A stretch of DNA of 64,000 nucleotides from a virus. Shown one piece after another: positions 2,605-34,465 of the stretch. Below the pieces are notes generated by a model. The model worked only from the letters and a program-made list of their open reading frames with translations, did no database searches and was not told the origin of the DNA. The stretch's first letter is position 1; the number at the start of each line of letters is the position of its first letter. The position numbers and the translations under genes were made by a program. The stretch is taken from the IMG/VR virus record IMGVR_UViG_3300005747_000263, positions 1-64,000 of that record; one strand, written 5' to 3'.

Positions 2605-3126
2605 TTAATCATTCTTTAACTCCTTATAAATTCTCTGATACACATGCTCACTTACTCTCGGCATATCCTCTGGTTGAACAAGCAATCCCTTAGCAGCATT
2701 ACAAATCATACACGTTTTCTGGATATTGTCGAGATTATACCCTTGGCCGGGGTCAATACGGTCATAAGTTAAGAACTGGTTAATGTTGTTATTGAAGCCA
2801 AGTAATCGTTGAATTTTCTTAATGAATACTGAGTCAGTCTTGGCTTGAGTAATTCTCGTCGTTAAACGTTGAATTGTTCTAGCGTGACGATTGCACCAAT
2901 AACACAAATCGGGTTGGTTAATCCACCATTCAATTAATGATTCCGGTGACGGAATATCGAATGGTAAGCCACGGCGCTTAGCGCCAGCCTTAATGCGAGT
3001 ATACCCCGTTTTACCGAATTTCTTTTCCTCGTAAGCATTCAATTGAAGTAATGTACCATCACTGAGAAAGTATTCATTATCAAGCAGAGAGTTCTTCTTC
3101 GGTAAGTTTTTCAATTTGTTGCTCAT
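2605..3126 (-). CDS. HNH-type endonuclease-like protein, 173 aa
   Basis: A CYWC pair (near residue 75) and a second CMIC pair (near residue 138) frame a central segment TYDRIDPGQGYNLDN. This matches the layout of phage HNH nucleases with a zinc-knuckle, where the DRID and N residues form the metal site. The N-terminus is basic (NKLKNLPKK), which suits DNA contact. The likely start overlaps the previous gene by 47 bases. It could be a free-standing homing endonuclease or a packaging-type HNH nuclease; it is far from the terminase gene, which favours the former. Confidence 0.75.
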   Translation of the reverse strand: MSNKLKNLPKKNSLLDNEYFLSDGTLLQLNAYEEKKFGKTGYTRIKAGAKRRGLPFDIPSPESLIEWWINQPDLCYWCNRHARTIQRLTTRITQAKTDSVFIKKIQRLLGFNNNINQFLTYDRIDPGQGYNLDNIQKTCMICNAAKGLLVQPEDMPRVSEHVYQRIYKELKND

Positions 3127-3465: not shown

Positions 3466-4653
3466 CTAGAATAATTGCCTCAACTCATTAGCAATTGCGT
3501 CTTCAGTTTCTTTCGAAACATCATCGGTTAAGTATTCCAGCAGCAACTGAGTTTCATCCATGAAGTGTATCATGAAATCGTCAAATTCACGGAAGTTAAT
3601 AAATCGTTCATCATCAAAGGATAGAACTTCATCGCCGTCCATGATTTGAGATACTTCTTCCCAGTTAGCACTCAGTGTTTCTAATTCTTTATGTGTAATA
3701 GCCTGGGTAGTTCCATTCGTTGGGGTATTCGTCCCAGTCGTCTTTATAGCCGCTGGCAACCCCATTGGTTTTTTCATATCACAACCCGGAGCAGTTTGTC
3801 CGCCAAACTGTTTCATGTACATCTGAGCAGTCGGGAAGTATTGTACTTTAATTTGATGCAGGATAGCGCCCGTATTGTTATCAAACACTGTCACGGCGTC
3901 GTCCCAATCGGCACTATAATCCGATTCAAATTCAACTTTAGTATTATAAGATGCCGCTTTACAAGTTGCATTTACACGTTCCAATTTCAAGCCGTTCTTT
4001 TCAATACTCTTGATTACATCATTATGTTTGTATTCAACAATATCAGAACTGAATAACGAGTGAATGTCGTCGTTCGTATTCAAAATTGCAATACTATCGT
4101 TAATTAAGTGATACGTCACTCGCTTATTAACATTGGCAACAATTGTAATGTCGCCGCGAGTCATAAACAATGCGCCGTTACCGTAATCAACTACACTTTC
4201 AAGTAATTGTTTAATATTACCCGCCAATACCTCATGGTCTTCGGAGTAAAATTCATCGCTGAAAATTAACTTGAATAAACTTAATGAATCGTTATCGCAA
4301 GACATGAACTCGTCGGCCATACCTACAGTACCATTCATACTACAAGTAAAGCCTCGATAGTCCCACCCGTGAATATATTCCGGTGCAGTTTTACCCACAC
4401 TAGTTAATCTGGCATGACCATGTACTACGCCGGTATAATGGTCTACATTGTAATCAATGAAATTCATTACATCTTTGTATTCCATTGTACGAAGCGTGTC
4501 GCTTTTACCAGTAGGCTTAGTATAGTTAAATACATAACCATCGTCGTTATTTTTCATGTCAGAGTTCTTCATGTATCGAAGCATGATTCGACGCATTAAG
4601 TCTCTTGTTTCAGGAGAATTGTTTAAATTCAATCCAATAAATCCTCTACACAT
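3466..4653 (-). CDS. class II glutamine amidotransferase (Ntn hydrolase)
   Basis: The protein starts MCRGFIG, with Cys2 in the place of the N-terminal nucleophile of class II glutamine amidotransferases. It then shows HGHARLTSVG (about residues 78-87, cf. GHxRxAT), a MNG segment near residue 107 and a DSLSLF helix. Such domains release ammonia from glutamine for a partner ligase. About 230 residues form this domain; the C-terminal 160 residues are unassigned. It is the last catalytic gene of a cassette with two amidoligases and an ATP-grasp ligase, so its ammonia or glutaminase activity most likely serves amide-bond chemistry there. An AGGATG site precedes the ATG. Confidence 0.85.
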   Translation of the reverse strand: MCRGFIGLNLNNSPETRDLMRRIMLRYMKNSDMKNNDDGYVFNYTKPTGKSDTLRTMEYKDVMNFIDYNVDHYTGVVHGHARLTSVGKTAPEYIHGWDYRGFTCSMNGTVGMADEFMSCDNDSLSLFKLIFSDEFYSEDHEVLAGNIKQLLESVVDYGNGALFMTRGDITIVANVNKRVTYHLINDSIAILNTNDDIHSLFSSDIVEYKHNDVIKSIEKNGLKLERVNATCKAASYNTKVEFESDYSADWDDAVTVFDNNTGAILHQIKVQYFPTAQMYMKQFGGQTAPGCDMKKPMGLPAAIKTTGTNTPTNGTTQAITHKELETLSANWEEVSQIMDGDEVLSFDDERFINFREFDDFMIHFMDETQLLLEYLTDDVSKETEDAIANELRQLF

Positions 4654-4671
4654 TGTTTCATCCTTTATGTT

Positions 4672-5595
4672 TTAATAATTTTGTAAAAAGAATCCATTAT
4701 CAAGTCTACTGTATGTATAAATGAATGCGGTTCTAACTGTTCCTCGTTCGACTAACTTACCGTTAGCATTAAACTTATATTCTTTTGATACGTCACAATC
4801 TAATCCGAGAGTTGCATTGGGAATAAATCTGGGTACAACATTTTCCGCTGCATTACCCATTGTTTGTATAAAAGCGCCGGGGTTGCCGGTGATTTGACTC
4901 GTAGTAATTTTTGGGTCAAGTACGGAGTCGTCAGTAGTAAGTGACTTACAAACTGAAGTCTTACATGATACACCGTCTTTTTCAAGATTTGAAATATACT
5001 TATTGATAAATGCAATACTTCCATACACATAATCTTTCATTACGGAGCATTCCTTTGCGGGGAATAGTCTTAATTCAAAAGTTTTCTTCCCTTGGTATGC
5101 ACCAGTAAAGTTAATCATGTAGTACTTATTTTGTCTACCGGAATCTGGATGGCTATGTTTAAAGTAATGGTCTGGATATTCAGTCTTATAGAAATCAGTT
5201 TCGTATTCAGGACTGCGCCATGACATTCGTTCTCGGAAATATTCATCCATGTAGTTATCAGTCACGAACTTGTAGAAAGCGGTTGCAAATTCCTTATTGA
5301 ACAGAGCGCTGTAATATTTACTATTATGGAATGAGAAATGAATATGCAAGCCCATACCTTGACTGTAATAGTCTTCGTAATAGATTTGTTTGAGTTCATC
5401 GAAGAAACCATTGATTCGCTTCTTATTACTCAACGGAATGCTTACTGCTTCTCGTTGATAATAATCTCCTTCAGGATATCTCTGGGGCCATAAGTATTCC
5501 TCAACTAAACCGCTGATATGAGGATAAGGAGTATCATTGTAAGTGCTAAAAAGACCTTCAACTTCAATACCTATCGCAGCAATTTTTCCTAGCAT
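4672..5595 (-). CDS. amidoligase, glutamine-synthetase-like fold
   Basis: The motif order fits the amidoligase family related to glutamine synthetase: GIEVEG (residues 9-14, acidic metal/ATP ligands), GLHIHFS (82-88), NFTG (162-165) and TFELRLFP (172-179). These enzymes activate a carboxylate with ATP and join it to an amine. Length (307 aa) is normal. The target is unknown. It lies between a 161-residue unknown gene (4-bp gap) and the amidotransferase (18-bp gap), in one operon with the ATP-grasp and the second amidoligase. Confidence 0.85.
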   Translation of the reverse strand: MLGKIAAIGIEVEGLFSTYNDTPYPHISGLVEEYLWPQRYPEGDYYQREAVSIPLSNKKRINGFFDELKQIYYEDYYSQGMGLHIHFSFHNSKYYSALFNKEFATAFYKFVTDNYMDEYFRERMSWRSPEYETDFYKTEYPDHYFKHSHPDSGRQNKYYMINFTGAYQGKKTFELRLFPAKECSVMKDYVYGSIAFINKYISNLEKDGVSCKTSVCKSLTTDDSVLDPKITTSQITGNPGAFIQTMGNAAENVVPRFIPNATLGLDCDVSKEYKFNANGKLVERGTVRTAFIYTYSRLDNGFFLQNY

Positions 5596-5599
5596 GATA

Positions 5600-6085
5600 C
5601 TATCCTACAATAACTGTTCCAGTTACGGTTGTAATTTTACCGTAACTAATATATAACGTCTGAATGAATCGATTAAAAGTAGTGCAATAATCTTCCAATT
5701 GTTGGTTATTATATAGACCCTGTAAACTAATCGCAATTCCATTATCTGCACCGTCAATTAATGCGAAAACTACATTGTGTCCGAAATCATAGTTGAGTTC
5801 GGGAGTGTTATACACTCCGGCACCATTTGGCATTCTAAGTTTACGAGTGTTAATTTGCTTACAAATGAACATTTTCCCGTCAGCATCGGTTAAAGTGTTT
5901 ACATTTTTAGTAGTAATTTCGTTCATAATCGCCGACATTACTGGATGCAATTTAATGCTCATTAAGAATTTTCCGTTATCTTGCAGTTCAAGTTTGATAT
6001 TGGAAAGTTCTTCGCCATTTTTGGCCGAAGGTGTTTTACTTAGATGCTCCACTAATGGAGCAAATTCACTAATCATTTCTGTCAT
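5600..6085 (-). CDS. hypothetical protein of the amidoligase cassette, 161 aa
   Basis: Not recognised. It appears to be a mixed alpha/beta soluble protein without membrane segments. Its ATG overlaps the ATP-grasp stop (TAATG) and its stop lies 4 bases from the amidoligase start, so it is embedded in the cassette and probably works with it, as a carrier, adaptor or substrate. Two ordered blocks stand out: a beta-rich segment with ADGKMFICKQIN (about residues 68-79) and a C-terminal TTVTGTVIVG strand. Confidence 0.75.
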   Translation of the reverse strand: MTEMISEFAPLVEHLSKTPSAKNGEELSNIKLELQDNGKFLMSIKLHPVMSAIMNEITTKNVNTLTDADGKMFICKQINTRKLRMPNGAGVYNTPELNYDFGHNVVFALIDGADNGIAISLQGLYNNQQLEDYCTTFNRFIQTLYISYGKITTVTGTVIVG

Positions 6086-6885
6086 TATAGTTCTCCATTA
6101 AAATACTTTACGAATGCAGTAGTGTATGAATCAAGAGTAGTTCCTTCTAACGCTGGACTACTATTCAATTCAAGTACAACTGGCATTGAATTATGTTTAT
6201 CAATGCAAATGTCTACTGCCGCAAAATCTAGTCCGAGTAATCGGACTGAATTAATTGCAGCAATAAGTACTTGTTGTGGCACTTCTACATTTTCTCTCGC
6301 AAAAATCCATCCATTATCGTAACTACGAATGTCTGGATTCCACGAATCTAATTCTCGGGCACCATTTCTTGCTTTCTTTTCCGAGTAATCAATTACTTCA
6401 CCATTCAATACGTGAATGCGAAACTCTCGCTCTTTAGCAATACCCTTAACGTATAATGGTGCATCAATTACTTCATCGCTACTGCGAGCAACAATGATAC
6501 CCTCTCCGCTGTGACCGTTTAATTTGGTACGAATGAATACTCGTTTACAGATATCATTATCTAACCAATACTTTGCAATATTAATATCGGTAGTATAGTC
6601 GGGGATATTAGTAAAATCTTCATTGTTCAAGTGTTCGAACGTTCGTAGTTTATCAGTACTAATATCCACGCCATTCTTGTTGAGAATAGTTGGAGAGTGT
6701 CCTGGTGTAATATTGATTCTTGGGGCGCTGTTGCCCCAGTTAATAATTACGTCGCCGGTTCGGGCACGGAATTTACTTTCTTCGGTGCGGACCCTGAGAA
6801 TGTTAAGTTGTCGAGCCAAGTTGCGACCCGATTCACTTGCCATTTTATACGGTAATAGTCTGATTCGTCGTCTTTGATTTCTCAT
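6085..6885 (-). CDS. ATP-grasp ligase (RimK-like)
   Basis: The N-terminus, LPYKMASESGRNLARQL, looks like the first strand and helix of phage RimK-type ATP-grasp proteins. It is followed by an INWG segment, TKLNGHSGEGI (ATP-binding glycine loop), PLYVKGIAKEREFRIHV, and the C-terminal metal site DICID...VVLELNSSP, in which D, E and N bind magnesium. ATP-grasp enzymes form an acyl-phosphate and attach an amine, usually adding amino acids to peptides. I chose ATG 6883-6885 because GGTGGAG precedes it; the frame is open further upstream. It overlaps the previous gene by 41 bases. Confidence 0.88.
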   Translation of the reverse strand: MRNQRRRIRLLPYKMASESGRNLARQLNILRVRTEESKFRARTGDVIINWGNSAPRINITPGHSPTILNKNGVDISTDKLRTFEHLNNEDFTNIPDYTTDINIAKYWLDNDICKRVFIRTKLNGHSGEGIIVARSSDEVIDAPLYVKGIAKEREFRIHVLNGEVIDYSEKKARNGARELDSWNPDIRSYDNGWIFARENVEVPQQVLIAAINSVRLLGLDFAAVDICIDKHNSMPVVLELNSSPALEGTTLDSYTTAFVKYFNGEL

Positions 6886-7519
6886 AATCTCCACCAATGT
6901 AATACCTAACATAATCGATGAATCCCATATTGTACCTACTATTAATAATAAGTTCTGGATGCTCATCTAACATGTGTAGATTTTGCCGAATATTTCTGCT
7001 TTGATAATAATCGCCCGGCGAGTATGAATTACTACTTATGTTGTTAAATAGCGTCTGGAAAGTAATTTCTTCTGGTAAATGTTTTTGCCATCCCCACCTA
7101 AGCGCATTGACAAAAAATGACGCAGGGATTTCGCGCCACTCGTAATCACGCGGCACAGTAATAAATACTTTAGTCGTATAACGTCCCACGGTAAATACAT
7201 TGAATGTTGGCATTCCGGGGATATTCTCCATCCATTCCAGAACCCTAACTAAGTTATGGAAGTCTCTCTTGCCATCTGCTTTCATTGCAAAGATTAACGT
7301 AGAATTGTCTCGCACGCGATATGTTGCAAATTCTTTACAATAAGCGTGGTCGCCGCTCCAGCCAAAAACATACGGTAAACCTCCATATCCATTATCTCTT
7401 GGTTTAATTGCATTGACTAACGAATATTTACGATTAGTAATTCTACTTAAGCGCAATAATTCAGGAACACTATCTACATTAAATTCTTTTAGATTGGGTT
7501 TATGACTCACATTTACCAT
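6845..7519 (-). CDS. hypothetical protein of the amidoligase cassette, 224 aa
   Basis: Not recognised. It has several Trp- and Tyr-rich blocks (YVFGWSGDHAYCKEFATYRV around residues 50-69; ALRWGWQKHLP around 139-149) and no membrane segment. It starts one base beyond the stop of the second amidoligase and runs into the ATP-grasp gene, so it is co-translated with both. A role as a substrate-recognition or acyltransferase-like partner is possible, but nothing in the sequence proves it. Confidence 0.75.
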   Translation of the reverse strand: MVNVSHKPNLKEFNVDSVPELLRLSRITNRKYSLVNAIKPRDNGYGGLPYVFGWSGDHAYCKEFATYRVRDNSTLIFAMKADGKRDFHNLVRVLEWMENIPGMPTFNVFTVGRYTTKVFITVPRDYEWREIPASFFVNALRWGWQKHLPEEITFQTLFNNISSNSYSPGDYYQSRNIRQNLHMLDEHPELIINSRYNMGFIDYVRYYIGGDYEKSKTTNQTITV

Positions 7520-8422
7520 TTAAATCTTCCAGTTTTCAAATACATTAGTACCAAGTTTCTTGTCGGTACTAAACATTTCTGCCGAATCAAGAATAGTAGC
7601 ATATTCAGGGTAGTATTCCAGAATATCTACTACAAGATTATTGCAGTACACTTCATTGTTAGCATTGAGGGAATGTTCCAATGCGTTCCAGTCGGTCTTA
7701 TATTCTTGCTCCATTGCCATTTTCTTAACAATTTCTACGGAGTCAAACATGTATTCAACTAACTTGGGGTGTTTGTACCAGTAATTACTTTGGCTTCGAC
7801 ACTCGATGCCGTATGGTTTTAACCTGTGGGCACCGGCTTTGCCGTATAGATTCTTACGAAGCGCCGCTTCAGGAGTTTTATCTAGGAAGCCAACTGCACT
7901 TGCACCAATTAGTAATTCAAAGTGTTTACCGACACTTTGTACACCTTCGAAGGTATCGAAGAAGTTTGATTCTTTAGAACCACTTGGACTAATATGAACA
8001 TGGCCTCCGCAAGTACGGAAAGGACTTTCGGCCGCCCCTTCTGGAATTACGTTGCGAGAATTATTAAAGATATTAAAATCTGGTTCACAACCGAATACCT
8101 TACAAATGGGGTGGTCCAATTGTTCCTTACTGTATTCGAGCGCCGGAATAGTATGAATACTCATTCCTTCCTCGGCATCACTAAGCATATTCTTAGTAAT
8201 TTTAAACAAGTTAGTAGTAATATCAATTACTTCTTGTTTGGTACTGCCTGGGTTAATACTCATTTCGAGGTTAGCATTGTCTGGGAATACTAATCCGTAG
8301 CGAGTCTTAATCTTAGGTAGGCGAACTTTTTCCAATTTAGGAATAAGTTGCATGGCTTTAGGGGCGCTAATTACTTCGCCAGTTGGTCTTTTAATTACAA
8401 ATTCTGGGTCGCTTCCAAACAT
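7520..8422 (-). CDS. phiEco32-type COOH-NH2 ligase (amidoligase type 2)
   Basis: The hallmarks of the phage COOH-NH2 ligase type 2 group are present: GSDPEF at residues 3-8, NANLEMSINP at 49-58, CGGHVHI at 138-144, and YGKAGAHRLKPYGIECRS at about 193-210. The fold is glutamine-synthetase-like; acidic residues and the HxH bind metal-ATP. The length of 300 aa is typical. It is clearly distinct from the other amidoligase at 4672-5595, so the cassette holds two ligases of different subfamilies. It lies between the Cys-rich-tail gene and a 224-residue unknown gene. Confidence 0.9.
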   Translation of the reverse strand: MFGSDPEFVIKRPTGEVISAPKAMQLIPKLEKVRLPKIKTRYGLVFPDNANLEMSINPGSTKQEVIDITTNLFKITKNMLSDAEEGMSIHTIPALEYSKEQLDHPICKVFGCEPDFNIFNNSRNVIPEGAAESPFRTCGGHVHISPSGSKESNFFDTFEGVQSVGKHFELLIGASAVGFLDKTPEAALRKNLYGKAGAHRLKPYGIECRSQSNYWYKHPKLVEYMFDSVEIVKKMAMEQEYKTDWNALEHSLNANNEVYCNNLVVDILEYYPEYATILDSAEMFSTDKKLGTNVFENWKI

Positions 8423-8438
8423 AATATACCTATACTAT

Positions 8439-9284
8439 TTAACAATCTCCGCAATCACAGTAATCATCATCATGACAACTTGAACAATCGCTATCACAGT
8501 CGTAAAAATCATTATATACAACCGCATCGCGCAGGTCAAAGTATGAATCGTTTGCACATTCGGTGCAAATATGCACCGAGGAAAACCTCTCTAAATGTTT
8601 TTCAATACCTACGCCTTTAATGGTATCAAATGTGCTACACTCTCCGTCTTGCAAGTAAACTTCCGCAGTATACTTGGCGTAGTTGTTATAACTTTTACTG
8701 AATGACTCGTTAAAGCCATTTACGTTTACGATTTCGCCGTCGCGCAATTCCTTATAATATTGACTCAAGTCTTTACCCCGATACTCGGGGAAGTAATAAC
8801 TTCCAAATCGAAGAATCAATGTGAGTAAATAAGTGTTAGGAACGCTTGCGATAAATAATGGATTGAATACTACAATACATAAGTCGTCACTTTCAATTCC
8901 AACATTACTGGCTTTAATGAATAATTCATCTTCGGGGAAGTTGAACCATTCCTTCATTACTTCACAGTAAGCGTTAATGTTATCTGCTAGGATTGCACCA
9001 TTCTTTGATTCGGCGCTCCTTGCTCCCATAAAGAAGTAATTACGAGTCCCATTGCGATAATGGTCGGATAAATAACCCGCCGCATAATCTCGACACTCCG
9101 ACGCGTGGTAATACTTATAAGTTTTAATGTAATGCGCAATATAAGTAGAACTGCTCGACTCGTCACTTTGAACTAATTTTAATTCTGCATCGGTCAATCC
9201 AATGACCGCATCGCGAATGTCAGGACTTAACTTACTTACAAGGTCTTCAGTAGTAATTGATTGCTTCAATAGTGTTTCTGTCAT
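8439..9284 (-). CDS. hypothetical protein with acidic, Cys-rich C-terminal tail
   Basis: About 230 residues of unrecognised alpha/beta sequence are followed by CTEC and then a tail of Asp, Cys and Ser repeats that ends CDSDCSSC, HDDDYCDCGDC. The tail could bind metal, or could be the protein's modified segment, since it ends with a free carboxylate in a cassette of carboxylate-amine ligases; both ideas are inference. I chose the ATG at 9282-9284 (MTETLLKQ) rather than a start 18 bases upstream; the first 38 bases overlap the cyclotransferase-like gene. Confidence 0.7.
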   Translation of the reverse strand: MTETLLKQSITTEDLVSKLSPDIRDAVIGLTDAELKLVQSDESSSSTYIAHYIKTYKYYHASECRDYAAGYLSDHYRNGTRNYFFMGARSAESKNGAILADNINAYCEVMKEWFNFPEDELFIKASNVGIESDDLCIVVFNPLFIASVPNTYLLTLILRFGSYYFPEYRGKDLSQYYKELRDGEIVNVNGFNESFSKSYNNYAKYTAEVYLQDGECSTFDTIKGVGIEKHLERFSSVHICTECANDSYFDLRDAVVYNDFYDCDSDCSSCHDDDYCDCGDC

Positions 9285-9645
9285 TCCAGTCACCAGATTC
9301 AATTAAATTATCTTCACTAACTCCGCCAAGATACAAGTAAATGTATGCAGGGCCAAGTTCGGTATCAATACTGATACGGTCATAGAAAGAGTTGTTATTA
9401 CTCCCCGGCGTATAACCTTCCAGTCCATTGATACTGCTTAATTCTTCATCATTAACCCAGTAAAGTTCCGCAACAATAGTATCACTATCTGATGCGCGCT
9501 TAATACCAGGGAAACTGAATAAAGAATACATTTTAAATCCAGGTACTTCAATAGTACTAACTGGGTCTTTACGCAAAAAGTAATTATGATTACCATTGCC
9601 TTGCCTCAATGTGCCATATACGGCAATAAGTGTTTCATTAGTCAT
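9247..9645 (-). CDS. gamma-glutamylcyclotransferase-like (AIG2/GGCT fold)
   Basis: VYGTLRQGNGNH at residues 9-20 is the glycine-rich substrate loop of this family. The later AELYWV...LSSINGLEGY block includes the position of the catalytic Glu. Known members split gamma-glutamyl amines or peptides to 5-oxoproline, or act on related amide bonds. At 132 aa the length is typical. It opens the amidoligase cassette, where such an enzyme could trim or reverse gamma-glutamyl links formed by the ligases (inference). Confidence 0.88.
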   Translation of the reverse strand: MTNETLIAVYGTLRQGNGNHNYFLRKDPVSTIEVPGFKMYSLFSFPGIKRASDSDTIVAELYWVNDEELSSINGLEGYTPGSNNNSFYDRISIDTELGPAYIYLYLGGVSEDNLIESGDWNDRNTIEAINYY

Positions 9646-10411: not shown

Positions 10412-10436
10412 ATTATTTATCCTCCAACGTATTAAA

Positions 10437-10510
10437 CGGGCATACTGCGATTTGAACGCAGGTGAATCGCTTAGAAGGCGATACGGATATCCGAACTACC
10501 TCATATGCCC
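10437..10510 (-). tRNA. tRNA-Arg (anticodon TCT)
   Basis: Acceptor arms GGGCATA and TATGCCC pair fully. The anticodon stem is ATCGC/GCGAT with loop CTTCTAA (anticodon TCT). The T arm is CTGCG/CGCAG with loop TTCAAAT. The D arm is weak (two GC pairs) but has the AGTTCGG loop. CCA is not encoded. It reads AGA codons, common in the AT-rich genes here. Confidence 0.92.
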
Positions 10511-10536
10511 AAAAAGAGAGAAAAAGGTAGTATTGA

Positions 10537-12443: not shown

Positions 12444-12463
12444 ATTAAACTCTCAACTACTAG

Positions 12464-12545
12464 TGCCGGAAGTAGGATTCGAACCTACGAACCACTAAGG
12501 ACAGGTTCTTAAGACCCGCGTCGTTGGCCACTTGACTATTCCGGC
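12464..12545 (-). tRNA. tRNA-Leu (anticodon TAA)
   Basis: Acceptor GCCGGAA/TTCCGGC, D arm GTC/GAC, anticodon stem CGGGT/ACCTG with loop CTTAAGA (anticodon TAA), a long variable arm as in class II tRNAs, and T arm GTAGG/CCTAC with loop TTCGAAT. The CCA end is not encoded. It reads TTA, a codon favoured in AT-rich genes. Confidence 0.95.
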
Positions 12546-27861: not shown

Positions 27862-28062
27862 ATGGCGTTAATCACTAATTTAACGTGGAAGAAATTAATT
27901 TTCGTTGTTCTATTAGTGTGTCCCATGATTTTTGCTTTAATTGCGTATCCATTCTTTTACGTCGAAGCATTGCAACCTGCTATTAGTATTCTTAGTGGAT
28001 TGTTAGGCTTTACTATGCGGGAGTTGTTCGAGACGGCTAAAGACGGCAAGGGGGAGCTTTAG
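27862..28062 (+). CDS. two-pass membrane protein, holin-like, 66 aa
   Basis: Two hydrophobic helices (LIFVVLLVCPMIFALIAYPF and AISILSGLLGFTM) and a charged cytosolic end (FETAKDGKGEL). Length and layout match small class II holins. It starts on the base after the previous stop. No endolysin lies nearby, so the holin role is inference. Confidence 0.65.
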   Translation: MALITNLTWKKLIFVVLLVCPMIFALIAYPFFYVEALQPAISILSGLLGFTMRELFETAKDGKGEL

Positions 28063-29853
28063 ATGGGTGTTGACCACTTTGAGACTAATGAAGTCCATGT
28101 TTTAGATACTACTTCTACGAGGGTTAATCCTGCCACGGAGGAGACTCTTCAGGCGGTAGTGGATGCTGTTGATGGTTTAGAACTTAGTGCTGACACCATT
28201 AATATCAACTTAGAGGACCTTGAGACTCTAGTCGCCGCCACAAATGCCGCCATAGCCTCCCTGGAGGCCGCTAACGACCTTTCTGGCGACGATGTGGTGT
28301 CTGCTATCCAAACGGCACAAAGTGCCTTAGAAGCCGCCCTAGGGGCCCTACAAGCCAGTAACGAGACACATTCCGACGAGGAGCAAGCGGCTATTGCTTC
28401 TTTGGAAGCCGCAGTGGCCGCGTTCCACACTGCCTTCGATGTGCGGGACCTCGCCACGGAGACTACCCTCGCCGACCTCCTCGCATCCACGGGTGATGAA
28501 ACCGATGCCGAAGCAACGGCTGACGGTTCAGTCATCGCTATCCTGAAGCGCATTCGAACGCGCCTCGACCAATCCATCACGGACTTCAACGCGGAAGACT
28601 TCGCGTCGGAGACCACTCTCGGCGCATTCAAAGCTGCAAACAATGCAGACATTCAGGCCCTCATTGCGGCCAACGACATTTCAGGTGACGATATCGTCAC
28701 TGCCATCCAAGCCCTCGAAGCGGCCAGCGATGCCTCGGGCGATGACATTGTCACGGCAATCAATGACTGTTGTGTCACCATCGAAGCAAGCCTCACTGCA
28801 ATCGAGGCAAGCGTTGACGCATTCAAGGCCGCCTTTGATGCCCGTGACTTGGCAACTGAAACAACGTTGGCGGATGCACGTGATAACATTGAGGACATTC
28901 GTGCCCGGTGGGTGGGTGGCTACAGCACTTCGGTTGGTGATGGTCACAGTGGAGGCGGCGCTCTTCGAACTGAGGGGCACAACTACGGCTACAACGGCGC
29001 CGACTGGGACCGTTTGCGCTCAAGCATTGCGAACGGCCTTGAAGTGGATGCCACCATTCTTCGTAGCGCCCCAACGATTGAGAGTGGGTTGAGTGATGTC
29101 GAAACCTCTGTCGATGAACTCAAGGCCCAGAATCTCACCAAGCACGACTCCATCATCTCGGAGTTGCAGGACGTTGAAGCCGACATTGAGGCATTCAAGG
29201 CGGAGGCTCACGCCGATTCGCTTGACACGCAAGCCGCAGTGGACGAACTTAAGGCAGTCAACCAAGCCGAATTCGACGCAACACAAACCCTGCTCCAGAC
29301 GGAGTTCGATGAGACTCAAGCTGCAATTGTAGCAGCCTCTGCTCAGAACGGTTTGGACCTCCAAGATGTGGAGGATGCCGTTGATGAATTGAAGGCTGTG
29401 AATCAGGCAGAGTTTGATGCAACCCAGGCTCTACTGCAAGCAGAGTTCGATGCCACTCAAACCCTTCTACAAACTGAGTTTGACGAAACCCAGACTGCCA
29501 TCTCTAACGCTTCCGCTCAAAACAGCGCCGACCTCCAATCCATCGAGGACAATCAGACGGATGGCTCGCAAATAACTCAAGTCATCCTCCCTACACTTGA
29601 AGAAGCAATGAAGGTCAAGTTGGACTTGACGTACAAGTGGAAGAGTGCCAAGACTATTGTTGGTACAACTAAGACAACTTACACGGCTTCCGCGCCGGTT
29701 GGGACCGCAACGAGTGCCGCGTTGTGGGTAGTGGTTCGTATCATTGAAGACCTCGCCACAGGTGACTCCCAGATTGAAGGTCGCGCTAACATTGCTTATG
29801 ATAATCGCGCCGACCCCACGATTGACGGTGAAGCGGCATGGGAGGCATTGTAG
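28063..29853 (+). CDS. long repetitive coiled-coil fibre protein, 596 aa
   Basis: Nearly the whole protein is Ala/Glu/Asp/Thr helical repeats. ATETTLADL-like units recur near 148, 185 and 265, and a longer repeat VDELKAVNQAEFDATQ occurs near 395 and 446. The last 80 residues form a beta-like cap (TYKWKSAKTIVGTTKTTYTA). This fits a trimeric or filamentous tail or head fibre. It is far more GC-rich than the genes at 22-28 kb and lies between head and tail-completion genes, an unusual place. Confidence 0.7.
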   Translation: MGVDHFETNEVHVLDTTSTRVNPATEETLQAVVDAVDGLELSADTININLEDLETLVAATNAAIASLEAANDLSGDDVVSAIQTAQSALEAALGALQASNETHSDEEQAAIASLEAAVAAFHTAFDVRDLATETTLADLLASTGDETDAEATADGSVIAILKRIRTRLDQSITDFNAEDFASETTLGAFKAANNADIQALIAANDISGDDIVTAIQALEAASDASGDDIVTAINDCCVTIEASLTAIEASVDAFKAAFDARDLATETTLADARDNIEDIRARWVGGYSTSVGDGHSGGGALRTEGHNYGYNGADWDRLRSSIANGLEVDATILRSAPTIESGLSDVETSVDELKAQNLTKHDSIISELQDVEADIEAFKAEAHADSLDTQAAVDELKAVNQAEFDATQTLLQTEFDETQAAIVAASAQNGLDLQDVEDAVDELKAVNQAEFDATQALLQAEFDATQTLLQTEFDETQTAISNASAQNSADLQSIEDNQTDGSQITQVILPTLEEAMKVKLDLTYKWKSAKTIVGTTKTTYTASAPVGTATSAALWVVVRIIEDLATGDSQIEGRANIAYDNRADPTIDGEAAWEAL

Positions 29854-30008
29854 TGCCGCTCAAACTCGCCGCAGTCTGCGTGAATTGCTCCGATGGCGCA
29901 AGCCCACCCATGGCTTTCTCTAGCAATTTGGATGCAACCCAACACCTCACGGATAACCCATACCACATCATTGTCAGTCGCGCACTTATTCATGAGGAGG
30001 AAGAATAG
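29853..30008 (+). CDS. small GTG-start protein, 51 aa
   Basis: It starts with GTG overlapping the previous TAG, after a GGGAGG site. Reads MPLKLAAVCVNCSDGASPPM and ends RALIHEEEE just before the next ATG, to which it supplies a GGAGG site. It has a CVNC pair. Function unknown, perhaps a fibre accessory. Confidence 0.55.
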   Translation: MPLKLAAVCVNCSDGASPPMAFSSNLDATQHLTDNPYHIIVSRALIHEEEE

Positions 30009-33000
30009 ATGGCGAACTACAAGGGTGAAGCCTACTGCACTTCCACAAACCTGACAGGAGCGGTTCACTTCAAACTCACCACGGACTCGGGTGGCACTTT
30101 CAGCGGTACTCGTGCCGACCGAAGCACTTGGGAACTGAACGCAGGGGCATCCGTCACGCTCTACTTCTACCGTGGAACCACGGGGACTCTCCCTCCCGCT
30201 CTACCGGATGGTGACGGCGGGGACTTGGTGAGACTCCGAGTCTATCATGAAACGGGCACGGGCACGCTCGTCCGTGAATTATTCACGGGGACTTCACCAC
30301 CAGCGAACGGTACGTCATACACATTCTATGCAACCAGCAATGGTCTTATAGGTGGCTCCCCTCGAGCCGGTACCCTTCGGCTACGCATTGAAGCCATCCA
30401 ATCCGGTGAATTGCTGGACAACTACAACATCGACAGTGACACGCAAGACCAAGGTGTCCTTCGATGCAATCAAGTCACTCCAGACACCAAACTCGTCCAC
30501 GACGGCTACCCCAGCGGTTCCACTTACGCCATCGGTCCAGCCAGCACTGAGAGCGTCGGCATCACATTCACCCACGACCCACCCTTCGGCACTGGCGCGC
30601 ATCAAGACATGCGCATTGATGTCCTTGATGCGGGGGCGGTTCAATTCGCGGGAACCCAACAAGACTTGGTGGGTACATCATCCACGCTGTCTGTCCCCGT
30701 GAACACCGCGAACTTCGACGACACCAGTAAAGCATACGGCCTCCGAGTCACGCCCATTGGTGCGGCGCTACTGCAACCAACCAGTGAAGGCTCCATGCTG
30801 TGGTGTCGCTTCGGGTCAGGCACGGGTACGACGCAGAACGGCAACTCCGTTGAACGCGCAAGTGGTGTATTCAACGTTGACCCCCGCGTCACCGTCCCGT
30901 CCCCGACCCTGTCTAAGTCCCTCCACAACCGAGGCGACAGCACGACAATTGATTACAACGTCAGGAACGCTCGGAATGAAAACCTCACTCGCTCCCTGAA
31001 CTACGTCCTCAAGGACAGCGGTGGAACTACACGCAAGAGTGGCTCCGACAGCGGCGCGAACTACGACATTGACTACACCATTGGCTCCGCAGATGCGGCG
31101 GCCTTTGACTTTGTCGGCTCCCAATGGACGTTCGAGACGAGCAACTCTGAATTCACTACTGTCACCTCTAACGCCTACAGGGTCAGCCGCAAGGTGATGA
31201 TTGGTTCCGGTGTTGGCTCCAATAATCTTTCAATTAATACGAACTTCGAGGTATACAATCGCGGTGAGACCGTCACCTATGACTTCTACGTCAGCGCCGC
31301 CGATGGCACTGCCTACACGCGCACCGTTACCGCCGAAGTCCACAACACAGCACACGGCGTCGAGAACCAACGCAGTGAATCCAACGGCGACGGGCACTTC
31401 CAAGATTCCTATGTTGTTGCCAGCGGTGATACTGCGACGGGTGACCAAACGGGCTCATTAAAGCACATTGAGATTGACCCCAACGGCACGGGCGGTAACA
31501 GTGCCGACGCGTCTGCCGCAGAGTGGGGCGTAAGCACCCTTCGCGTCATTCACAGCACAGCAACACTTCCCAGTGGCAACCCCGCCAACGCAGACAACAC
31601 GGTGTCAATCGTTACCACGACGAGTGACGACGGTGGGGGTGGCGACCGTTCGCTACTGAATGTCCTTGAGACGGCACAGATTGACTACTACCTTTATGGG
31701 GTTCGAGGACAGGCGTGGCCCTTCAGTTTTAACAGTCGCATCATCGCAGCCGATGGCAGCACCGACTTTACGGATGTCCGCACTCCCAGTGGTGCTGGTC
31801 TCGTGTCCTACACGCGCACGATGGCGAACGGTGTTGAATCCGCATTCGACCTCGTTGGTGATGCCAAGCACATTCGCGCCGACAGCAGTGACTCTAACGA
31901 CACCGTGAACAGCGCCGATGCCGCCGCCGTATCAAGCAAGATTCTCATTGGCTCCGCCGCTGGCCTTGATGACGGGGACCTCGTCATTGAAGTCGGCTCC
32001 GTTGGCAGTGGCGACGATGCAACAATGAGTGGCGTCTACCCCACCGCCATCTTCAACCGTGACAGTGGCGAAGCAGACGTTGCCATCAGCACCTACCTAT
32101 CCTACGCCCGTCTCACCAAGTATGCCAATCAAACAGTGAGCAGTGCAGTCCACTCCGATGTTCACGGTGTGGAAGATTCGCAGACACCCACGACGGATGC
32201 CAACGGTCTGCTTGCTTACACTTACACCATTGCCAACACCGACAAGGCCACCGCGCACGTTGAGAAATCCACGGGTGGCTACAGTACCCTGCCGACTGGC
32301 TCGCCCAAACACCTCACCATCACGGACGGCGACAACACTACCATTGACAGCGACGAAGCGTGGGGTGTCACGAAGCACCTATGGGTGGATGTTCACGACG
32401 AGCGTGAGGAACCTCTCAATAGGGACACATGGAACCCCGCTGACCCCAGTGATGGCTCCGAGAACGCAGAGGAAGAACCGTTCCAATACGTTATTCTTGG
32501 TGATACTCTCAAGGTATGGGCTCATGTCATGTCGGTTCGCCTCGACCGCGAAATCGAGACATGGGATGGGGACACAGGCTCCTATCCAGCGAATCGCGCA
32601 GTGCGTCTCCGCACAATCAAACCCAGTGGTTCCGTCAACGCCACCATGCTCACGGACACGGGCATTGATGGCTGGACGAGTGGCGTGGACGAAGCCGAGA
32701 CCGGTGAACTCAATGGCGCCACAGACCCAATGGTTGTTGAGGAAACCTACGAGACATTCTCTAGCGGTACCGACCAAATCACATTGACTGGCGTGGATGC
32801 CGTGAAGGGCAACCGCTACATCATCTTCTCCAGCAACGGCTCCGCACCCGTAGACATCACGGGCATCACTGGCATGGGATTCACTTGGGTCCAAGTCGAT
32901 GCCCAAGAATCTACTAATAACAGTGGTCGCTTGGAGGCTTGGATTTCCGAAGGCGCATTCACTGGTGCTGAGAACATCGTCATCGACTACAGTGGCGTGT

Positions 33001-33932
33001 TCCAAGACTGCGCCGTCACCCTCGTCCGTGTTAGTGGCGGTGACGTAAGTGAACCCGTCCTTGACTTCACGGGTGATTCACAGAACGGTAGCTCTTGGAG
33101 CCTCCCCACCTTGACTGGTGACACTGGCACGGGCATCGTCGTCGTGGGTGTGAACGGCAACGACAAAGATACCGTCACGATGTCCGCCCCACTCGCTAAG
33201 GAATCCGACAACCCCGGAGCAGGTAGTGAAACCGCTCTCGGTGTCGGCGCATTCACGGCGCAAGCTGACAACAGCACCAGTGGTTCATTCAGTGCACCCG
33301 GTAGCACTCGCTGGCAAGCTATCGCCGTCAGCCTACGAGCAGGAGACAGCGACGACCCCAACAGTGGTCTCAACTTCAACCGACCATGGAATCAGGAAAC
33401 GGGCAGCATGACTCCCGCTTCAAGCAACTGGCAGGTATGCGCCGAAGTGGATTTCGACGGCAACTCGGGTAGAGCGTGTGACCTCATCACGATTGCGTCT
33501 CCTCTCATCACCAGCAAGGCTCGCATCTTCGCACCGGCAACGGTGTCGCCAGCCGAGACATTCAAGGTCTACGTCGAAGTGCTGGACAAAGCCATCGCCA
33601 GCGGTGAGGTATTCGCCACATTCCAACCCGCCACCCCCGAGAAGCCCCCTGAACTTGGCGGTTTAGTGGTCGAGGAAGACAGTCCAGACTACGTCGATGA
33701 CAGTGTTATTGCTCGTGAGGTGGACAAGAACGGAGAATCCATGAAGAACGTAATCGACGACACAGCCACAGTGAATGGCTCCCTCTACTACCTCGAAGTG
33801 ACGGCTCCCGCGATTCCGGGAACTGTCATTAACTGGTTCGCCGTCGTAGCCCTTGGTGGCGACGCTTTCACGAATGGACAAACCCGCGTGACTGCACCAG
33901 AGTTCAACCCACTAGGAGAGATTTTCGCATGA
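30009..33932 (+). CDS. very large Ig-like repeat surface protein, 1307 aa
   Basis: Thr/Ser/Asp/Gly-rich beta protein with no membrane segment. At least four related Ig-like modules are visible, with recurring pieces: VTAEVHNTAHGVENQ, SSAVHSDVHGVEDSQ, LKHIEI and PKHLTI, SYTRTMANG and TYTIANTDK, and AAFDFVGS and SAFDLVGD. A later part (about 880-1080) has lectin-like beta sequence. It is probably a capsid- or tail-attached adhesin. Very GC-rich compared with the tail genes after it, so likely acquired. Confidence 0.7.
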   Translation: MANYKGEAYCTSTNLTGAVHFKLTTDSGGTFSGTRADRSTWELNAGASVTLYFYRGTTGTLPPALPDGDGGDLVRLRVYHETGTGTLVRELFTGTSPPANGTSYTFYATSNGLIGGSPRAGTLRLRIEAIQSGELLDNYNIDSDTQDQGVLRCNQVTPDTKLVHDGYPSGSTYAIGPASTESVGITFTHDPPFGTGAHQDMRIDVLDAGAVQFAGTQQDLVGTSSTLSVPVNTANFDDTSKAYGLRVTPIGAALLQPTSEGSMLWCRFGSGTGTTQNGNSVERASGVFNVDPRVTVPSPTLSKSLHNRGDSTTIDYNVRNARNENLTRSLNYVLKDSGGTTRKSGSDSGANYDIDYTIGSADAAAFDFVGSQWTFETSNSEFTTVTSNAYRVSRKVMIGSGVGSNNLSINTNFEVYNRGETVTYDFYVSAADGTAYTRTVTAEVHNTAHGVENQRSESNGDGHFQDSYVVASGDTATGDQTGSLKHIEIDPNGTGGNSADASAAEWGVSTLRVIHSTATLPSGNPANADNTVSIVTTTSDDGGGGDRSLLNVLETAQIDYYLYGVRGQAWPFSFNSRIIAADGSTDFTDVRTPSGAGLVSYTRTMANGVESAFDLVGDAKHIRADSSDSNDTVNSADAAAVSSKILIGSAAGLDDGDLVIEVGSVGSGDDATMSGVYPTAIFNRDSGEADVAISTYLSYARLTKYANQTVSSAVHSDVHGVEDSQTPTTDANGLLAYTYTIANTDKATAHVEKSTGGYSTLPTGSPKHLTITDGDNTTIDSDEAWGVTKHLWVDVHDEREEPLNRDTWNPADPSDGSENAEEEPFQYVILGDTLKVWAHVMSVRLDREIETWDGDTGSYPANRAVRLRTIKPSGSVNATMLTDTGIDGWTSGVDEAETGELNGATDPMVVEETYETFSSGTDQITLTGVDAVKGNRYIIFSSNGSAPVDITGITGMGFTWVQVDAQESTNNSGRLEAWISEGAFTGAENIVIDYSGVFQDCAVTLVRVSGGDVSEPVLDFTGDSQNGSSWSLPTLTGDTGTGIVVVGVNGNDKDTVTMSAPLAKESDNPGAGSETALGVGAFTAQADNSTSGSFSAPGSTRWQAIAVSLRAGDSDDPNSGLNFNRPWNQETGSMTPASSNWQVCAEVDFDGNSGRACDLITIASPLITSKARIFAPATVSPAETFKVYVEVLDKAIASGEVFATFQPATPEKPPELGGLVVEEDSPDYVDDSVIAREVDKNGESMKNVIDDTATVNGSLYYLEVTAPAIPGTVINWFAVVALGGDAFTNGQTRVTAPEFNPLGEIFA

Positions 33933-34465
33933 TTAGTAACGATGAATACCCATTCTGGGCACGATGGTACGTCAATCGCACACTAGAGTCGGATATCACC
34001 GATGTTGACTACGTTATCCAAGAGTACGACCCCGATACAGATGCATTCGTTACTGTTGATTCCGGTAATATCGCTACACGCGATGCGCGTGGACGATGGA
34101 TTGCTCCATTTACATTCCCTACAGATACAGTTAATATCGTATACTACGCAGAGTACACGCCGAACGGTGGGGACCATCCCGTTTTAAGTGAAGAAGTTAC
34201 GACAGACGATGGTGTAGTATTTGCAACACAAGGTGGCGCGGGTACGGAAGAATATTCTGGATGCGTTAAAGATAAATCCGGAGCACCCATTGAGGGTGCA
34301 TTAGTTAAAGCTGTGTTTTACGGTACGGTTAATACTGCCGCGAGTGATTTAACAGATATTAATGGGGACTTTACTTTAACGGGTTTGTATGATGGTGTTG
34401 CGTACACTATTACTGCTAACGCGGATGGGTTTACCGGTAAGATTGCGGATAAGGTGGTTATTTAA
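33929..34465 (+). CDS. protein with carboxypeptidase-regulatory-like domain, 178 aa
   Basis: The start overlaps the previous stop (ATGA). Residues 1-105 are beta-rich (YPFWARWYVNRTLE). Residues 108-178 read SGCVKDKSGAPIEGALVKAV then DLTDINGDFTLTGLYDGV, the typical Ig-like carboxypeptidase D regulatory-domain pattern. Such domains decorate phage virion proteins and help adhesion. AT content returns to that of the tail genes here. Confidence 0.75.
   Translation: MISNDEYPFWARWYVNRTLESDITDVDYVIQEYDPDTDAFVTVDSGNIATRDARGRWIAPFTFPTDTVNIVYYAEYTPNGGDHPVLSEEVTTDDGVVFATQGGAGTEEYSGCVKDKSGAPIEGALVKAVFYGTVNTAASDLTDINGDFTLTGLYDGVAYTITANADGFTGKIADKVVI

Follow-up and report, generated by a model that had tools for sequence, protein, structure and literature searches.

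A gene module that pairs a phiEco32-type COOH-NH2 ligase with an amidoligase occurs in many phage genomes and has been under discussion since 2009. In Pseudoalteromonas phage HP1 and its relatives it has been described as a "peptidoglycan modification cassette" of seven genes, in a paper that also cites phiEco32, 7-11, PA11, tf, LUZ24 and PaP3 (PMC5498523). Its five-enzyme set, the two ligases together with a class II glutamine amidotransferase (GAT-II), a RimK-like ATP-grasp ligase and a gamma-glutamyl cyclotransferase, is treated as a peptidoglycan modification module both there and in PMC11945000. Seven open reading frames (ORFs) of the module are reported from phage PhiM6 (PMC6256558), and the gene-by-gene list of phage UFV-P2 includes it (PMC3890496). 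We found no paper in the literature that demonstrates the substrate or activity of the module. Here we describe an eight-gene cassette at positions 3466-9645, on the minus strand, of an uncultured virus. The window, meaning the whole stretch of DNA analysed, comprises bases 1-64000 of a 74,011-bp IMG/VR virus record (IMGVR_UViG_3300005747_000263).

The cassette very probably belongs, as a strongly diverged copy, to the known phage COOH-NH2 ligase/amidoligase module. A sequence-only reading of the window had put two amidoligases from unrelated subfamilies in the foreground, and the sense of novelty in this finds no support: the pair is standard, and papers describing the module exist (PMC5498523, PMC11945000, PMC3890496). 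The eight minus-strand genes listed in that reading were all found, tightly packed with gaps of 0-18 nt or short overlaps. In order of transcription, with lengths in amino acids (aa), they are:

9247..9645, minus strand: GGACT/AIG2-like gamma-glutamyl cyclotransferase, 132 aa (Pfam PF06094, 6.4e-17; phrog_2520, 3.8e-16)
8439..9302, minus strand: 287-aa protein with Cys70-Arg71-Asp72 and His244, candidate member of the u290x family (custom profile)
7520..8422, minus strand: phiEco32-type COOH-NH2 ligase (type 2), 300 aa (phrog_3815, 1.3e-42)
6845..7519, minus strand: 224-aa protein with weak likeness to u290x (C61, G199; Tyr at the position of the family's His)
6085..6885, minus strand: RimK-like ATP-grasp amino-acid ligase, 266 aa from ATG 6885 (phrog_2599, 4.4e-77; Pfam RimK, 8e-6)
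5600..6085, minus strand: 161-aa orphan encoded immediately upstream of the amidoligase, no relatives found
4672..5595, minus strand: Amidoligase_2-like ligase of the GCS/GS fold, 307 aa (Pfam, 0.21; phage amidoligase profile, E 0.002)
3466..4653, minus strand: class II glutamine amidotransferase with Cys2 as nucleophile, 395 aa (custom profile only)

Enzymes of the cassette and conservation of the module

All five enzyme identities proposed from the letters alone were recovered, three by library search (Pfam and PHROGs) and two, the amidoligase and the GAT-II, by calibrated custom profiles derived from 178 phage loci. For the family profiles, 19 annotated phage regions and 160 viral contig regions were collected, and hhalign scores were calibrated against the 96 window ORFs of 100 aa or longer and against 60 composition-preserving shuffles. 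The cyclotransferase also matches a profile of phage cyclotransferases (1.5e-27), and the COOH-NH2 ligase keeps 17/17 columns that are invariant across 15 phage proteins (alignment A1). The RimK-like protein is at most 43% identical to phage proteins, retains the ATP-grasp residues (alignment A3) and matches RimK/alpha-L-glutamate ligases in the PDB at 1e-7. Its reading frame opens at 6966, but the likely start codon is ATG 6885 or GTG 6894, shortly before the 224-aa gene ends; the earlier assignment of this gene stands with a revised start.

The 307-aa and 395-aa proteins gave no significant library match (the amidoligase reached just 0.21 in Pfam, and none of Pfam, PHROGs and NCBIfam matched the GAT-II). 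Each nevertheless ranks first among the 96 window ORFs for its expected family. The 307-aa ORF scores 35.9 in hhalign, compared with 19.3 for the best of the 60 shuffles, with a probability of 69% against the phage amidoligase profile, and its motifs GIEVEG, HIH, KYYMIN and FELR agree with conserved letters of the family. The 395-aa ORF scores 26.1 (best shuffle, 20.9), and GHARLTSVG...YIHGW...MNGTV...NDS aligns with GHnRaaTvG...AHPF...HNGtl...vDS of the GAT-II profile, with the expected Cys2, GHAR, NG and DS in place. A tblastn search in phages with the 161-, 224-, 287-, 307- and 395-aa proteins gave no match.

Across the locus set, 89 loci measure 15.5 kb or more, and 69 of them hold all four core enzymes (the two ligases, the RimK-like enzyme and the GAT-II) as a group on one strand, with a median span of 4.9 kb; 30 of these 69 also carry the cyclotransferase. 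Loci were fetched through the COOH-NH2 ligase or the RimK gene, which biases the counts of those two genes and leaves the other counts unbiased. Because the core enzymes cluster on one strand in so many loci, the scattering that would have spoken against a conserved unit was not observed. A protein of about 190 aa (family u190) stands between the two ligases in 114 of the 122 loci holding both; it is common, not defining.

The COOH-NH2 ligase has matches in 309 phage records. Among 84,980 bacterial and archaeal genomes its profile hit no more than 10 contigs. All of these stem from metagenome-assembled genomes and most also hold other cassette genes, so they are probably viral. Given this scarcity in cellular genomes, the ligase looks almost confined to viruses.

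Two further observations concern the wider family of loci. We denote gene order by c for the cyclotransferase, x for a protein of about 290 aa, C for the COOH-NH2 ligase, u for the ~190-aa protein, A for the amidoligase, G for GAT-II and R for the RimK-like ligase. A reduced cassette of amidoligase, GAT-II and RimK-like ligase only is common in environmental viruses (L104, L101, L136, L153 and about 30 more); the order A-G-R occurs in 36 loci, some of which end at contig edges. In public records, several amidoligases are labelled L-glutamine-D-fructose-6-phosphate aminotransferase (L019:4809-6005, L011:7136-7981, L001:10410-11510), a label apparently taken from the GAT-II gene next to them.

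The 287- and 224-aa proteins and the u290x family

In environmental viruses, genes of a family that we call u290x lie beside the cassette (L192-L212; L021:6365-7162 and 7162-7986; L182:128-931). Its signature comprises an invariant Cys in C-[RK]-D, a conserved W...SL..LR stretch and a C-terminal H-N-x-x-G, and an alignment of 13 members (A6) has invariant Cys, Asp, Tyr, His and Gly. The family is absent from Pfam, and in 50,697 phage records one query gave 1 match and another gave 0. When u290x served as the sole bait in viral contigs, 20 of the 21 loci recovered carried two or more of the four core enzymes and 18 carried all four. Seven of these contigs had come up earlier by way of the ligase, and 5 of the seven had supplied the u290x bait. 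Of the 14 contigs not previously fetched, 13 carry the cassette, and the remaining one is a 10-kb fragment with RimK. The family is thus bound to the module, a result that concerns u290x more than the copy in the window and adds one Cys/His family to the module.

The 287-aa protein is probably a divergent u290x member. It ranks first among the 96 window ORFs for this family (hhalign 29.6, best of 60 shuffles 17.6), and its score against the u290x hidden Markov model lends moderate support (E 0.013-0.039 at Z=1000). It holds CRD, NTYLLTLILRFG and His244, and its gene immediately precedes that of the COOH-NH2 ligase, the place that u290x takes in L021 and L182-L184. Because the core aligned by hhalign is short, at just 31 columns, we grade membership no higher than probable. 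An internal ATG in this ORF gives the length of 281 aa reported earlier.

For the 224-aa protein, no match was found in Pfam, PHROGs or phages. It ranks second of 96 for u290x, with 2 of the 60 shuffles reaching its score, and its candidacy as a sure member was dropped when an enlarged profile lowered the score to noise. AlphaFold2 models built with the u290x alignment were of low confidence (predicted local distance difference test scores of 56 for the 224-aa and 55.5 for the 287-aa protein) and had no significant fold match in BFVD or the PDB. Both models match the phage protein A0A6J5LH58, which has no assigned function, with probabilities of 0.97 (287 aa) and 0.60 (224 aa); since both were built on one shared alignment, this common match is weak support.

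The invariant Cys and His make u290x look more like an enzyme than a carrier or substrate. The sequence-only reading had singled out the three proteins of unassigned family as prime candidates for carrier or substrate, which found no support: the 287-aa protein probably belongs to this enzyme-like family, and the 161-aa protein has no significant match in any library searched and does not belong to the u190 family. It is conceivable, if rather unlikely, that u290x has been missed as a dedicated partner of the module and is a Cys/His-dependent enzyme, such as a thiol amidase or a transpeptidase moving the finished peptide onto its target. Such an enzyme would give the module a step open to assay, and a paralogous pair around the COOH-NH2 ligase (the 287-aa and perhaps the 224-aa protein) would have taken the place of the usual ~190-aa partner in this virus.

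Homology of u290x to the "CFG" family of PaP3 (orf49/50) or to u190 was unsupported in profile comparison. That second family of ~290-aa proteins, marked by a conserved CFG motif, lies upstream of the cassette in phiEco32/LUZ24-type phages (L009:1941-2912, L019:2495-3442, L002:5085-6017 and relatives) and has no profile link to u290x.

Proposed chemistry and rival explanations

From its conservation as a unit we infer that the cassette works as a single pathway. Identities, motifs, operon-like packing and this conservation are observed above; the catalytic steps proposed here come from the enzyme families, and the target from published argument. Amide or isopeptide chemistry is quite likely. 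The ATP-grasp enzyme and the two GCS/GS-fold ligases would use ATP to activate carboxyl groups and attach amino acids or ammonia to these, with GAT-II freeing ammonia from glutamine for the ligases. The cyclotransferase would cleave gamma-glutamyl isopeptides and so trim or recycle products, and the 287-aa accessory protein may act alongside as a thiol-dependent enzyme. The first choice among targets, taken from the published proposal, would be a host cytosolic peptidoglycan precursor, altered to block superinfecting phages or to prepare lysis; we hold this tentatively, as a choice that could well be wrong. Overall, a diverged module member that makes and trims amide bonds is likely the best explanation of the locus.

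Several points weigh against this explanation. The ~190-aa partner was undetected in the window ORFs and in the last 10 kb of the record. Catalytic residues, whose loss would have told against the enzyme assignments, are mostly kept, with exceptions in the two diverged enzymes: the amidoligase reads EGD at the DGS motif, of which D and S are 94-97% conserved in the family, and the GAT-II match is moderate, with HGW in place of the usual HPF and MNG in place of HNG. On simple inspection no cassette gene appeared secreted or membrane-anchored, and nothing in our analysis ties the module to peptidoglycan. We know of no module enzyme with a published activity.

One rival is the tagging of a protein of the host or the virion: the RimK-like enzyme would extend a C-terminus or side chain, the other ligases would amidate or branch it, and the cyclotransferase would trim it. 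Enzymes of the RimK family glutamylate ribosomal protein S6, the window protein matches solved RimK/alpha-L-glutamate ligases, and Iyer and colleagues reportedly proposed peptide modification of proteins in the title of their paper. The cassette, however, has no recognisable carrier or substrate protein. In phage SU10, proteomics identified the ATP-grasp, amidotransferase and YtfP/GGCT proteins as early products; as the sample was a lysate concentrated with polyethylene glycol and not purified on caesium chloride, these data show expression and are no proof of virion association. We consider protein tagging unlikely. A soluble gamma-glutamyl or amide metabolite, serving nitrogen handling or counter-defence in place of polymer modification, seems equally improbable: three different ligases are elaborate for a single product, although a gamma-glutamyl cyclotransferase and a glutaminase-type domain would suit a small-molecule cycle, and no cassette member is matched by the defence proteins of PADLOC, which fits this idea. 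A role in nitrogen metabolism has been proposed for phage ZRK32, but that claim is based on the growth effect of the whole phage (PMC10945688).

Hypermodification of phage DNA with amino acids is suggested by a thymidylate synthase-family gene 1 kb downstream of the cassette. We regard it as very unlikely, for the cassette has no base hydroxylase, kinase or glycosylase, and to our knowledge there is no precedent for amino-acid DNA modification by such ligases. Least credible of all is an accidental adjacency in which the weakly matching amidoligase and GAT-II are unrelated proteins. Their poor library scores would allow it, but both rank first of 96 in their expected families and exceed all 60 shuffles. 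Amide-bond chemistry by a diverged copy of the module is the explanation that we prefer.

Genomic setting and comparison with described systems

The window encodes a terminase, a portal, a major-head-type protein, a tape measure, tail genes, a family A DNA polymerase and an exonuclease. The virus is a strongly diverged uncultured tailed phage, and its tape measure gene points to the long-tailed type. No close relatives were found in the viral contigs and phage records searched; a DNA-level search of phage records with the cassette and single-protein viral scans also gave no match. Beyond GAT-II the unit runs on into a 125-aa protein of no assigned family and then an HNH endonuclease. Directly downstream of the cassette lie the HNH/endonuclease VII-like gene (2605-3126) and the thymidylate synthase-family gene (1715-2443; phrog_85, 1e-63), and two tRNA genes, Arg-tct and Leu-taa (10436-10511 and 12463-12545), lie just upstream of the cassette. 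Promoters and terminators did not exceed chance expectation. Elsewhere, G+C content is 54-57% at 28000-34000, compared with 36-50% in the rest of the window; this stretch covers a 1307-aa ORF (30009-33932) without a family match, between the head and tail genes. A B12-dependent ribonucleotide reductase is encoded in the same record outside the window (L181:9669-11675, record 69669-71675).

The gene order of the cassette, c-x-C-(224)-R-(161)-A-G, was not seen among the loci, the nearest being x-C-R-A-G in L086. Phages of the LUZ24/PaP3 group (UFV-P2, tf and PaP3, and also the P. aeruginosa phage U17) hold all five enzymes in one early block and, like the window, ~290-aa proteins upstream of the COOH-NH2 ligase. 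Their order is x-C-u-A-G-R-c, whereas the window lacks u, and their proteins are about 30% identical or less to those of the window. The same five or four enzymes occur in the seven-gene cassette of Pseudoalteromonas HP1/RIO-1 and PA11/TC6 (Zobellviridae), which are podoviruses with a gene order unlike that of the window. PA11 has an extra 206-aa gene annotated as a glutamine amidotransferase, whereas neither the window nor the final 10 kb of the record yielded a class I (C26-type) enzyme. phiEco32, the type locus of the type 2 COOH-NH2 ligase, and Salmonella phage 7-11 share this ligase, the cyclotransferase and the ATP-grasp enzyme with the window, but differ in a large fused GAT-II, a long C-terminal extension on the ATP-grasp gene and another order. 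The nearest COOH-NH2 ligases (33-36%) are those of L021 and L182-L184, with u290x directly upstream; the stretches fetched for L021 and L184 contain neither RimK nor amidoligase nor GAT-II.

The kind of cassette is thus already known, and the present copy adds a diverged virus with a tape measure and an altered gene order and gene set. It marks the ~190-aa partner and the class I enzyme as dispensable parts of the module, in contrast to the two ligases, the ATP-grasp enzyme and the amidotransferase, which persist.

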